Shown here: in pieces, positions 58,116-62,684 of the stretch
Numbering within the stretch: position 1 is the stretch's first letter
Layout of the letters: each line of letters opens with the position of its first letter
DNA from: Fragilaria crotonensis
Taxonomy: Eukaryota > Bacillariophyta > Fragilariophyceae > Fragilariales > Fragilariaceae
Length of the DNA: 63,695 nt
NCBI GenBank assembly: GCA_022925895.1
Contig: JAKSYS010000344.1
Coordinates: 1 to 63,695 of the forward strand
Reading direction: 5' to 3'
Made by a program: the position numbers and the translations under genes
Notes under the pieces: generated by a model
What the model was told of the DNA's origin: nothing
The model's database searches: none
Seen by the model: only the letters and a program-made list of their open reading frames with translations

Positions 58116-59548
58116 TCAGACTGACATCATTTCAACATGCTTCCCCTCATCCTCCACAAGCGTCTCGTCGTCAGCAGGGGCTACAATACCAGGTAGAGTC
58201 CTTTCAAGAACCTCCTCTGGAGCCAAAATATTCCCATCCAAAGCAGCGCTAACGTTGGCATCTTCGTCTGGACCTGAATCATCTCCGCCTTTATCTGGGT
58301 CGCCCTCTTCCACTTCCTCCTCGCGCGTGGCTTTCTCTTCAACAATTCCATGGTTCTTCGTCCTTCGGGTGTAACTCTTCCTTTCTGCAGCTCGATCTGG
58401 TCTGTGGAGATCCCTCATAACCTGACAGGCCTTATGAACAGCTTTGTCGTCAGACAACTCCTCCCATTCACCATCCAGACCTCGGGTATACATAGACCAG
58501 CCTTCATCGTTTGCAGTTTTTTCTGGGGGATTGCCGTTGCCTGTAGAACGTTTGAGAAAGCGGCCTGGCGGATCGAGGCTTCGAATGATACCAACAATCT
58601 CAGTTGCAAGGGCCCTCTTGTCCGCGTAATTGCCAGCGTCGAATCGATCCTTGCGCTCAATGGCAAGTTGACGAAAGCGTTCGTTTCCAATGTGACCATT
58701 CACAAACGCACCTCGACCCGACAAAACGTCGTGGTCGTGAACCCCATACGGGTTCTCAACAATGGGGGGCAACGGCACGGCAGGAATGGGCTGCGAATAA
58801 CGACGTGAGAGAAATTCAGAATGTGGTTCTATACCGTCAATGGCAATACTTACAGCGTTAACCCCTGGGGTAGATTCACTAGTCCGTTGACGCTTCCGAG
58901 CTCCGTTCGAAGAGGCCATTTCACGTAGGATGAGGCGATCTGGACGTTGAAAATCGCGCATGACTTGACATGCTTTAAGGATAGCCTTCTCGGTACTTAC
59001 TTCATACCAAGGCCCCTTGTCGTTCTTTCGCTTCAAAAAGCGACCTGGCAGAGCCTTGGTGGCACTTACAATCTCGGCAGCTATGCGACGCTTCGCGGCG
59101 TGGTTCCCTGCCTCGAATTCTGGTTTGCGAGAGAAACACAAGGCACGAAAAGTGGTATTACCTCTGAGGTTTGATGTCATGAAAGGGGTAAGGGAGTGTT
59201 TGAGCAAGCTGTTTTGAAACATCGCTAAGCATAAAATCGATGGCGAAGATGGGTGGCGTACCTGTGTGCATTCACCGAGGCACCCCGGCCGTTAAGAATG
59301 TCATGTTCGTTTGGCTCAAGAATAGGTTCGCCATCCTCTTCATGACCTGTTAGTGCATCGCGTTTGTAACCATCATCTTCAGCCTCCTTGATTTCCTCCA
59401 CATTATCATCGCCAACATTGTCAGAGTCAACAATCTCTCCTTCACCTAAGACATCAGACTCTGGTGGTACAACGCCCTTTCCTTCATCAGGAAACTGACT
59501 GGATAGCAATCCTACCTCGTCTTGAACATTTTCCGAAGTCGTGTCCAT
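58116..59548 (-). CDS. Protein with two DUF6824-like domains (2 exons)
   Basis: Proposed CDS: complement(join(58116..59163, 59262..59548)), 444 residues. The 98-nt intron (GTACGC to CCTCAG) interrupts the first domain at NAHR|GNTTF. Two similar domains of about 90-110 residues are present. The first has HDILNGRGASVNAHRGNTTFR, then GRFLKRK, WYEV and KACQVMRDFQRPDR. The second has HDVLSGRGAFVNGHIGNERFR, GRFLKR, WEELSDDKAVHKACQVMRDLHRPDR. The D-(I/V)-L-x-G-R-G start and KACQVMRD end are what I know of DUF6824, a family abundant in diatoms and of unknown function. Acidic, disordered segments lie before and after. A DNA-binding role has been suggested by its basic, helical character, but the sequence does not prove it. 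Confidence 0.8.
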
Positions 59549-60509
59549 TATGCTACTATACCCAGAACTTTTAAGAGTACTGGCGACCTTGCAGCTGGCA
59601 CTCCTCTAATTAGAATCAAGACAGCGGATTGCTTCGACTGGATGAATCAAATCAATCGACCCTGTGGACTGAAAGCAACAATTGATTCAATTGATTGCAC
59701 CCAGGACTCCGGTAGAGCAGCGTCGACTTCTTCGATTGAGAATGGAGAGAACCGCAGCGAGTCGGCGCTTCACTGAGGCACGCGTGGCAGGTGGCGAGTC
59801 GATGAGGAGTCCTCCACACTCCACACTCCACACTCCACACTCCACACACGCCAGATATGGCCATACGACGCTACAACTGGCATGCATACAGAAGTACCAG
59901 TACGGATGTACTGTAGCACTCAGAACCAGAGTGGAACCCCATACATGCACCTTCGTAATGCTTTTATTACGTAGTACAGGGTACTGTACATGTAGTATTG
60001 GTGTTGGAACTTTTTTTTCGAGCATTCATTTTGGAACAGATGAGTACTCGTACATCTCACGTGCCGGCAAATAACGGTTTAGAAATTCAGCAACGAAACC
60101 AAAATTTCGTCCAAAAATACAGAAATTGACTGTTCCTGCGAAAGAAAAGTGAACGAAAAGGAAGAGTATTGAGGAGTCGTGAGTCTGACGTCTTAAGTCT
60201 TGAGTCTCGAGGAGTCATGAAGATGCGCACCAATGTATTAGTACTGACACACTGCTATGAAGTCGATTAGAAGGTTCAAAATGTAACCCACAATTGACGG
60301 GATTATCTGCATAACAATCAGGCTACAAGCTAGAACCAATTGACGGGATTATCTGCATAACAATCAGGCTACACGCTAGAACCAATTATGTACGCCACGT
60401 GCAGAACGACAACTTTCGAGTTATCAAACGAAACCTGCTAGACGTAGCGATTTGCAGTAACTAAAGTGTCTTGAAACTTGCATAGGCTTCTGCTTGGCAA
60501 TTGAAAGTT
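59549..60509. other. Intergenic region with short tandem repeats
   Basis: CACTCCA units repeat about five times at 59813-59845. A unit of about 46 bp (AATTGACGGGATTATCTGC, then ATAACAATCAGGCTACA(A/C)GCTAGAACC) occurs twice at 60293-60383, and a third copy begins. CTTGAGTCTC-like repeats lie near 60175-60215. No gene is supported. Confidence 0.6.
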
Positions 60510-61343
60510 TCAGTTCGACAGGAATGCAAGGTCGGCATCGAGAGACTGTCGCGAGACGCCTTTGGCACAAAGTAAGCCCATATTTCCTCTCTTCCCATGA
60601 TCGGCTCGTATAATCCAAAGATCGACTAAACCGGAGGAGTCTTCACTCTCTACTTCAGCTATTGAAGAAAGAATTTTGGAAGTTAGACTGAAAGCTGTCT
60701 CGCCTGTAACCTCTTCGGTGTCTCGAAAACGTTCTACTAGACTTTTCAATATCAGATGGTTCCTCTTCCCCGCAACGCAGTAAATGCATTGTTCCATCAC
60801 CCCACCAGGGTCAGTTTGGTAGATTTGCACTTCACCTGCTGTATCACTCCGTCTCGACCTCGTAACTCCAATGACAATTCCTGTGCACCCCAGCGGTCGA
60901 GCTCCAGCGGTTTTGGTCAAGTCATGTTGCAGTCTAGCTGCATATTCCGCCACCTCCTTCACCGTTGGGGTTTCGCCATACGAAAGGAGATGACGTTGGC
61001 AAGAAGTTCGCAAGGCCGATGCCAAGGCTCGTCCATCGCCGGCCATGCCGGCCGAGGCCAACAGAATGTGCGAGTCGATGCGGTGCAGTTTATCCGTACC
61101 ACGGAGTGCGATGATCGCCATGGTTTTATTCACGAGAGCAGTGACGACGCTCTCGCCACGATTGGCAGCCTCCAAGCCGTATTCAACTTGCTGGAGCCTT
61201 CCATCTGGAGAAAAGGTTGTGATAGCACGGTCGTATTTGACTTGTTGCCCTGCGTACCGAACAATGGGCCTTCTTCTCGAGTGAGCCCCTTCGGTCCGTG
61301 CAAGCAAGAACGCTAAGAGAGCGAGCAATAATGATTGTCGCAT
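60510..61343 (-). CDS. Proteasome alpha-type subunit with N-terminal ER signal peptide
   Basis: From the ATG at 61343 the protein has 277 residues. The alpha-subunit signature YDRAITTFSPDGRLQQVEYG is clear at about residues 38-57. The rest of the fold follows: MAIIALRG, LLASAGMAGDGRALA, LGCTGIVIGV and a C-terminal helical part. Unusually, the signature is preceded by a strong signal peptide, MRQSLLLALLAFLLARTEGA, with HSRRRP after the likely cleavage site. No ATG lies between this start and the signature, so the hydrophobic leader is part of any product unless an upstream exon exists. Alpha subunits form the outer, non-catalytic rings of the 20S proteasome in cytosol and nucleus and normally lack leaders. 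In diatoms a signal peptide without Phe at +1 is typical of proteins held in the periplastidal compartment, where a ubiquitin/Cdc48 system exists. That location is inferred. Confidence 0.85.
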   Translation of the reverse strand: MRQSLLLALLAFLLARTEGAHSRRRPIVRYAGQQVKYDRAITTFSPDGRLQQVEYGLEAANRGESVVTALVNKTMAIIALRGTDKLHRIDSHILLASAGMAGDGRALASALRTSCQRHLLSYGETPTVKEVAEYAARLQHDLTKTAGARPLGCTGIVIGVTRSRRSDTAGEVQIYQTDPGGVMEQCIYCVAGKRNHLILKSLVERFRDTEEVTGETAFSLTSKILSSIAEVESEDSSGLVDLWIIRADHGKRGNMGLLCAKGVSRQSLDADLAFLSN

Positions 61344-61959
61344 GACTACGAAACGTAATGATGGGGCGGGGCAAATTGTAAGCATGCTGGTGGTCATGAA
61401 TTGCAGGTAATATGGTAATATGCCAACATTCATCATGATTTACGTGATGTCGATGGGATTTCTTGACAGGTATTCCGCTTCCAGGGAGTACTCCAGTCTC
61501 CAGTACTCCAGTACTAGTACAAGTACTTGTTCGCGTGGTGCAGTATGATGAAAAATGTGTACTGTGTACTGTAGTACTCCAGTACAACACTCCGAGTATG
61601 AATCTACTGTAGCGAGGCGTACATGGCGTAATCTGCTGGAAGGTCCGGCCACGCACCTCTGCTTGGTATTAATTGCATGTAGAAGCTACGAGGGGAAACG
61701 TCATTTTACCGGACCTCCCTGCCATCCGCTACTACCGTAGACGCCACCAGCCACCAGCCACGAGCAACTGGCTGCTGGCTGCTGGCTTGCCGAGCGCAAG
61801 GGGAGAAGAAAAACGTCACACGTCAAGGTCCTGCGGTGGTGCACTGCGTCGATGTCGCTAAATCCCTCACCACAATCCTGTGAAGTTCGCTTTCTGCTCG
61901 TATCATATTAACGAGCACCGCATGCGAACGCTCATTGGAGAAAGCAGTCACATCTAACC
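61344..61959. other. Divergent promoter region with short repeats
   Basis: About 616 nt lie between the start codons of the proteasome subunit (-) and the Rdx-like gene (+). The region contains GTAC-rich sequence (61480-61580). At 61743-61790 CCACCAGCCACCAGCCAC is followed by GGCTGCTGGCTGCTGGC, a partial inverted repeat. No gene was found. Confidence 0.5.
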
Positions 61960-62684
61960 ATGAAGACGAGAGAATTTATGTTCCTGACGCTTGTCGTAAC
62001 TGTGGTTTGCGCCGCGCATGTCGACGCCTTCAGTCCTTCCCGCGGCGCTCGCAGGGTTTCAGTAGCAGGCATGAGTATGGAAGGGAAAGTCAACGGCGAC
62101 TCGATTCCTATCGTCGACAATATCGACCTTACCACACAATTGGACCCAGACGCGATAATGCCACTGGCCCCTCCGCTTACCTTTGACAAGTATCTGACAA
62201 TGCAGGTACGAACCTACTTGGTGCCACTCACCGCCATGCCTCTGTAAGTTTGCCTAACTCATATCATTCGCGTTTACAGGACAAACGAGTCGTTGTCACA
62301 ATACAATACAGTGCTGAATCTGGCATGAAACCATACTTCCTAACTGTTGCCAAGAAGATCAAAGCCTCACATCCTGATGTTATTTTGGAAAAGAGAATCC
62401 TCCCCGCCCCCAACGAAGGTGGGGAGCCTACCTTTGAGGTGGTAGTAGACGATAAAGTTGTTGTAGGCAAGAATAATGCTCGTATGCAACGATTGGGTTC
62501 CGACAAGATTATTCAAGATTCAACTGGTGGCATGAGTGTCTTTGTGTCGATGGGAGAGCTGGATCTTGCCATATCCAAAGCACGACGACGACGACGTCCG
62601 ACTACCATGTACGGTAAGGAAAATGAAAGCAACATTCGGGACATGCTGCGACGGGATGTCAACGATGGGGACGAGGAGCACTAG
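61960..62684 (+). CDS. Plastid-targeted Rdx/selenoprotein W-like protein lacking the redox cysteines (2 exons)
   Basis: Proposed CDS: join(61960..62205, 62280..62684), 216 residues. The 74-nt intron (GTACGA to TTTACAG) is in phase 0. The N-terminus MFLTLVVTVVCAAHVDAF-SPSRGARR is a signal peptide followed by the diatom plastid motif with Phe at the cleavage site and a basic transit stretch, predicting import into the plastid. The second exon looks like the thioredoxin-like Rdx fold: VVVTIQYSAESGMKPYFLTVAKKI, then a segment resembling FEVVVDDKVVVGK. In Rdx/SelW proteins the first strand ends in YCxxC or YCxxU; here it reads YSAES, so both positions are Ser. A thiol-disulfide role is therefore unlikely. 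The C-terminus is basic then acidic (KARRRRRPTTMYGKE). Family assignment is moderate; targeting is clearer. Confidence 0.7.

Follow-up and report, generated by a model that had tools for sequence, protein, structure and literature searches.

Introduction

The closest described systems to the locus analyzed here are the 20S proteasomes of the periplastidal compartment (PPC). In passages of one source, only 20S core subunits are attributed to this compartment in plastid-bearing heterokonts, being host-encoded and directed by signal peptides, and a hand-over by Cdc48 is suggested (PMC5070193). Likewise, passages of a second source describe periplastid 20S proteasomes of diatoms without 19S cap, also termed degenerate, with two proteins localised (PMC5756292). 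What these accounts leave open is how, in plastid-bearing chromists, an import that is derived from degradation and depends on ubiquitin can operate beside a proteasome without loss of the cargo (PMC5756292, PMC5070193).

Here, we examined a proteasome gene in a stretch of 63,695 nucleotides from the diatom Fragilaria crotonensis (contig JAKSYS010000344.1; hereafter the window). We consider, with a probability of about 80%, that its product belongs, as an alpha4-type subunit, to a second 20S core that is sent via the ER into the PPC, judging from the sequences of the gene and of its relatives in the same genome.

Sequence features of the window gene

The 277 aa frame (without stop) runs from 61343 to 60510 on the minus strand, and the N-terminus of its translation reads MRQSLLLALLAFLLARTEGAHSRRRPIVRYAGQQVKYDRAITTFSPDGRLQQVEYGLEAANRG (Table 1). 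Its matches to PF00227 and PF10584 both exceed the curated cut-offs, and the QVEYG ending of the alpha signature, pointed out in the first-pass annotation, is present. A single-sequence fold model of residues 21-277 reached a mean pLDDT of 44.7, too poor for a fold search, and when relatives were sought in viral contigs, 10 stretches fitted a pattern with 0 true relatives among them.

Leaders were scored using an approximate matrix of the von Heijne type, with a cut-off of 3.5, together with a hydrophobicity cut-off (best 10-residue Kyte-Doolittle mean). Congruent with the signal peptide initially proposed ahead of the 20S alpha signature, the window leader is strong by this matrix (11.1) as well as by hydrophobicity (3.30). 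Both cut-offs are passed by 14 of the 156 ORFs of the window (six-frame, ATG-started, at least 60 aa), rendering the leader alone a one-in-eleven event, and the case is therefore carried by the set of leader-bearing 20S genes described below. The cut had been placed at GA|HS, which the matrix disfavors with a score of −17.9 and Glu at −3; the best cut is instead after Thr17 (ART|EGA, 11.1). The absence of Phe at the cut nevertheless holds, as the +1 residue is Glu or His by either site, never F, W, Y or L. With cleavage after residue 20, 16 residues are retained ahead of YDR, versus 2 in the leaderless alpha4.

The leader was also thought not to be optional, and indeed the stretch from the leader Met to the signature contains no ATG. 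On the other hand, an in-frame ATG is found upstream, at 61436, yielding a form of 308 aa in which the hydrophobic stretch begins at approximately residue 35. This corrects that part of the claim, and translation may start at 61343 or farther upstream.

Table 1. Positions of the window gene, its parts and adjacent features, and contigs of the leader-bearing 20S genes
Feature	Location	Strand	Details
Leader-bearing 20S proteasome alpha subunit CDS (alpha4/PSMA7-like, predicted)	60510..61343	−	277 aa, no evident intron
Predicted signal peptide region MRQSLLLALLAFLLARTEGA, residues 1-20	61284..61343	−	Score 11.1, hydrophobic mean 3.30; top cut after residue 17
Basic, transit-peptide-like extension at the N-terminus, HSRRRPIVRYAGQQVK (residues 21-36)	61236..61283	−	
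PF10584 alpha N-terminal signature, YDR motif intact, residues 37-59	61167..61235	−	E 2.6e-12
PF00227 Proteasome domain, residues 66-243	60615..61148	−	E 5e-26
Short back-loop (6 residues), then retained pocket lysine K85	61089..61109	−	
Upstream in-frame extension with further ATGs (308-aa form)	61344..61436	−	
Tandem repeat past the proteasome gene on its 3' side	60291-60387		46-bp unit, 2.1 copies, 98% matches
Tandem repeat past the proteasome gene on its 3' side	59812-59847		7-bp unit CTCCACA, 5.1 copies
DUF6824 protein	58116-59222	−	PF20710 E 1.7e-37, in two stretches
Leader-bearing alphas (six)	C275 (window), C688, C107, C49, C225, C201		
Leader-bearing betas	C350, C753:7297-7935, C36, C250, C659		beta1, beta2, beta3, beta4 and beta5, respectively

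Relation to alpha4

A leaderless alpha4/PSMA7 is encoded as a separate gene of the same genome (G000, contig C800), with 58% identity to human PSMA7. The window protein shares 37% identity with the C800 protein and 32% with human PSMA7 in local alignments that use an approximately joined C800 model and approximate human subunit sequences. Its pairwise scores are highest against PSMA7 (251) and C800 (249), the next being 211. Among the best 60 of 221 matches to solved structures, the top-ranking chain (7qve_k, E 2.1e-26) is an alpha of unnamed type, followed by a chain named as alpha4 (5fmg_D, E 3.2e-25). The named chains scoring close behind are mostly alpha4/PSMA7, and some archaeal alphas occur among them. 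When the window protein is the sole leader-bearing row of a tree, it joins alpha4 with weak support (64/82) on a branch of 2.76, and in a tree of all alphas no leader-bearing alpha is firmly placed in a type, with 10 of 16 inner branches open. Being closest to alpha4, albeit with weak tree support, the window gene appears to encode an alpha4-type subunit, as an extra paralogue beside the leaderless alpha4. An extra alpha paralogue had been anticipated, and the separate gene at C800 agrees with it; for the same reason, the opposite case raised at that time, of a sole copy of a canonical alpha, does not apply. We also considered that the leader might be a chance upstream extension of an otherwise canonical alpha, and rejected this in view of the separate leaderless alpha4 together with ten other leader-bearing 20S genes.

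Leader-bearing 20S genes across the genome

Profile searches of the own genome returned 29 matches to PF00227 at E <= 0.001 (34 at E <= 10) and 10 to PF10584 at E <= 10, a weak PF10584 match at C242 (E 3.47) being left out of the gene count. We read the matches as 22 genes and three allele-like second copies (C376, C241 and C631). The genes comprise 10 leaderless 20S subunits (alpha2, 3, 4, 5 and 6, and beta2, 3, 4, 5 and 6), 11 leader-bearing ones and one HslV-like gene (C18:104130-104351, minus strand), the latter classified by eye and perhaps with an organelle-type N-terminus. The search for other alpha and beta subunits with signal peptides, proposed in the first-pass annotation, thereby yielded ten further leader-bearing genes.

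From the chosen start codons, the leader score is passed by 10 of the 11 leader-bearing genes versus 0 of the 10 leaderless (one-sided p 3e-5), a test that is partly circular as the leader itself helped to name the set; the sole miss is C201, at 3.39 versus the cut-off of 3.5. Using the first in-frame ATG of every gene without further choice lowers the count to 7 of 11 (p 0.003). The two starts differ for four of the 11 genes; of these, C36 passes the leader score in its first-ATG form, and the other three (window gene, C659 and C688) do not. For the ten genes besides that of the window, 9 pass from the chosen start and 7 from the first in-frame ATG. Less circular evidence is that, where a type has two divergent copies, the leader sits on the divergent one, namely for beta2, beta3, beta4 and beta5 by tree, for alpha4 with weak tree support, and for alpha2 (C688) by pairwise score only, the clade test neither supporting nor rejecting the grouping (p-AU 0.405). 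C49, C107, C225 and C201 fall clearly into no single alpha type.

The genome searches left a beta6, a beta7 and a seventh alpha missing from the leader-bearing set, and a search with the own leaderless beta6 as query likewise yielded no leader-bearing beta6. Analogously, leaderless alpha1, beta1 and beta7 were not found in the own genome with approximate human queries, nor was leaderless alpha7 with the PF00227 and PF10584 family models. As conserved leaderless subunits are among those missing, the assembly or the search is incomplete, with a recall of approximately 10/14, and 11 of 14 possible leader-bearing subunits would be compatible with a full set, without demonstrating one.

All 11 leader-bearing genes have frames that are open over the domain, one intron in C49 excepted. 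By the approximate gene models, introns are present in 1 of the 11 leader-bearing genes (C49) versus at least 6 of the 10 leaderless. The frame of an XRN1-type exoribonuclease (XRN_M, XRN1_D1) continues stop-free into the leader-bearing beta5 (C659, L002, minus strand), amounting to 1353 aa. Near-identical pairs (C36/C241, C107/C631, C753/C376 and C305/C150) suggest that both haplotypes are partly assembled, and stops in C376 as well as broken frames of the leaderless alpha4 and alpha5 point to errors of assembly. The genome furthermore contains 19 silicon-transporter matches, as for a diatom, with three tandem silicon-transporter domains in one open frame of 1456 aa at C97:29749-33762, and two within one frame at C771.

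Catalytic sites, alpha ring and ATPase docking

Alignment of the leader-bearing beta1, beta2 and beta5 demonstrates that T1, D17, K33, G47, S129, D166 and S169 are all kept, as is R45 in the leader-bearing beta1, and the three protease sites of the second core thus appear intact by sequence. In the beta tree, each of the leader-bearing beta1-5 falls within its own type with starred support. The host and human copies cluster apart from the leader-bearing copy for beta3 (97/90), beta5 (96/94) and beta4 (91/89), with beta2 left open. Such placement, in a tree with leaderless diatom and human copies, is as expected if the leader-bearing betas are of endosymbiont origin, a pattern that rapid evolution could mimic.

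The alphas are considerably more divergent. End branches are 2.78-4.65 changes per column for the leader-bearing alphas and 0.41-1.16 for the leader-bearing betas, a comparison that spans two separate trees, the alpha tree carrying a warning of long branches meeting. C225, C201 and C49 are devoid of a PF10584 match, and C225 displays a 45-residue loop.

According to passages of earlier work, the HbYX C-terminus of activators is bound by an alpha lysine (K66 in Thermoplasma), and the back-loop has been reported to be important for gate opening (PMC10055539). All five leaderless alphas have the HbYX-docking lysine, versus 1 of 6 leader-bearing ones, namely the window protein. The other five leader-bearing alphas lack a lysine in ten aligned columns around the pocket position, but C107 has one four residues upstream of this position that would be usable under another alignment. 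The pocket column holds His in human alpha1 and Arg in alpha7, and since the alpha1-alpha7 pocket is the only one named as lacking a lysine in passages of a review (PMC13022661), the alignment of alpha7 may be shifted by one position here. The back-loop preceding the pocket lysine comprises 6 residues in the window protein versus 14-17 in the five leaderless alphas.

Two Cdc48 genes were recovered, one leader-bearing (C402) and one leaderless (C240), the leader of C402 being weak (2.43 versus the cut-off of 3.5). The C402 frame ends in DDVLAVPATGDDEE, without HbYX, and the C240 protein in DEEDLYS, with HbYX. A second leader-bearing Cdc48 was sought in the genome and not found. Passages of PMC5070193 state that a pair of such Cdc48 forms is usual in plastid-bearing heterokonts, one of which keeps HbYX in most two-form species; with one leader-bearing Cdc48 found here, a HbYX-bearing form may have been missed, which would count against a core uncoupled from ATPases. 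For the 19S ATPases, five Rpt genes were recovered from the incomplete assembly, one of them scoring under the family cut-off, and the frames read, which may not include the first exons, show no leader. PA28 is present at C305 and C150, with an N-terminus that is ambiguous as to a leader, and a genome search for UMP1 yielded no match with controls equally silent, and is hence uninformative. From these features we infer a core without cap, its sites putatively functional and its docking of ATPases weakened or lost.

Targeting and alternative readings

In passages of work on diatom plastid import, an aromatic +1 residue is described as crucial (PMC3017844). In all 11 leader-bearing 20S subunits, the predicted +1 residue is other than F, W, Y or L, and with the aromatic residue absent, the plastid stroma is judged an unlikely destination. 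A plastid-type leader can be read in the plus-strand neighbor (exons 61960-62205 and 62280-62684 as joined; VDA|FSPSRG), which is transcribed divergently from the proteasome gene with 617 bp between the starts. Its VDA|FSPS site scores 4.4, the matrix favoring a cut five residues earlier (7.4), and the protein has a sub-threshold Rdx-like match (E 0.013).

We then weighed whether the leader-bearing set could represent a proteasome of the ER lumen or the secretory route rather than of the PPC. The first 10 residues past the predicted cut are neutral or acidic in 8 of the 11 subunits (net charge −2 for beta1 and beta2, and −1 for beta3, beta4 and C201), and are basic only in the window protein, C659 and marginally C49. 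Most leaders thus miss a clear basic transit-peptide-like stretch, and passages of PMC3017844 describe that GFP fusions with acidic leaders mostly stalled in the ER. The same passages, however, report that neutral leaders got to the PPC and that the mature domain could contribute transit functions; in addition, heterokont 20S subunits are published as PPC-located (passages of PMC5070193 and PMC5756292), and the genome encodes a leader-bearing Cdc48, although its leader is weak by score. We therefore regard an ER location as unlikely, and favor the PPC as the destination of the window protein.

Another reading is that the window protein starts elsewhere, at the ATG at 61436 or in a spliced first exon, leaving the leader unused and the product cytosolic. 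The frame is indeed open to the upstream ATG, from which the 308-aa form misses the hydrophobicity cut-off, with the cleavage-site score unchanged. Yet similar leaders are found on ten other 20S genes, seven of which pass from the first in-frame ATG, 0 of 10 leaderless subunits pass the leader score, and a leaderless alpha4 already exists at C800, rendering a cytosolic product very improbable. It is also conceivable that the set is a decaying relict, with alpha genes heading for loss and no working barrel. The long end branches of the leader-bearing alphas, the three without a PF10584 match, the loop in C225, and the two beta types and one alpha that were not found all lean in this direction, but apart from the C49 intron no frame of the 11 is interrupted within the domain, the catalytic beta1, beta2 and beta5 keep every checked residue, and the leader-bearing betas are much less divergent. 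We thus give decay very little credence, and retain the reading of an alpha4-type subunit of a second, PPC-directed core.

Proposed function

The signal peptide would drive ER entry of the alpha4-type subunit, and, following the published rules, the non-aromatic post-cut residue would permit SELMA passage across the periplastid membrane and a stop in the PPC, the remnant cytoplasm of the red-algal endosymbiont. There, the window alpha may join the other leader-bearing alphas and betas into an assembled and active barrel. The second core would be without 19S cap, as suggested by the literature and by the five Rpt genes found, which show no leader. With most of the cap-ATPase-binding lysines gone from the leader-bearing alphas, the core probably works without an HbYX-type ATPase, on unfolded or leftover proteins, and ubiquitin-driven import could run beside it, with the cargo not fed into the core. 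The specialised proteasome-like ring in the periplastidal space that the first-pass annotation proposed would fit such an arrangement.

Considering the lysine in 1 of 6 leader-bearing alphas, the 6-residue back-loop of the alpha4-type subunit and the leader-bearing Cdc48 without HbYX tail, we tentatively raise a further reading, the odds of which we hold to be against it: the PPC 20S may be complete and catalytically intact, with an alpha ring freed from ATPase control, so that the import machine and the protease are physically uncoupled. If true, uncoupling would explain why imported proteins escape digestion. Intact active sites combined with a largely lost cap-docking lysine would then provide one concrete and testable answer to the question left open in the literature, a core decoupled from ATPases.

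Comparison with known systems

With cytosolic alpha4 (PSMA7, yeast PRE6), the window protein has in common PF00227 and PF10584, the YDRAITTFSPDGR signature and the pocket lysine. It differs in the signal peptide, the basic extension before YDR, a back-loop of 6 versus 16 residues and an identity of 32-37%.

A proteasome within the remnant red-algal cytoplasm would be shared with cryptophytes. According to the parts of the literature considered, the cryptophyte version is however nucleomorph-encoded inside the compartment and comprises core and cap, whereas the genes analyzed here would be nuclear and their products imported, with the Rpt genes found lacking a visible leader.

Among the literature matches listed (titles and abstract openings), neither an alpha/beta asymmetry nor the pocket lysine of the PPC core appears. 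We do not assert newness of the 11-gene list or of the contrast between betas and alphas, as Moog et al. 2011 and Stork et al. 2012 may list these subunits. Judging from the passages cited, a second, leader-bearing diatom proteasome is already described, and this genome adds most of the parts list. The heterokont PPC 20S (PMC5070193 and PMC5756292, after Moog et al. 2011 and Stork et al. 2012) shares with the present set signal-peptide core subunits beside a cytosolic set and, probably, a cap-free nature. Relative to its description in those passages of the citing papers, the differences here are the 11 leader-bearing subunits, the catalytic betas that appear intact, and the very divergent alphas.
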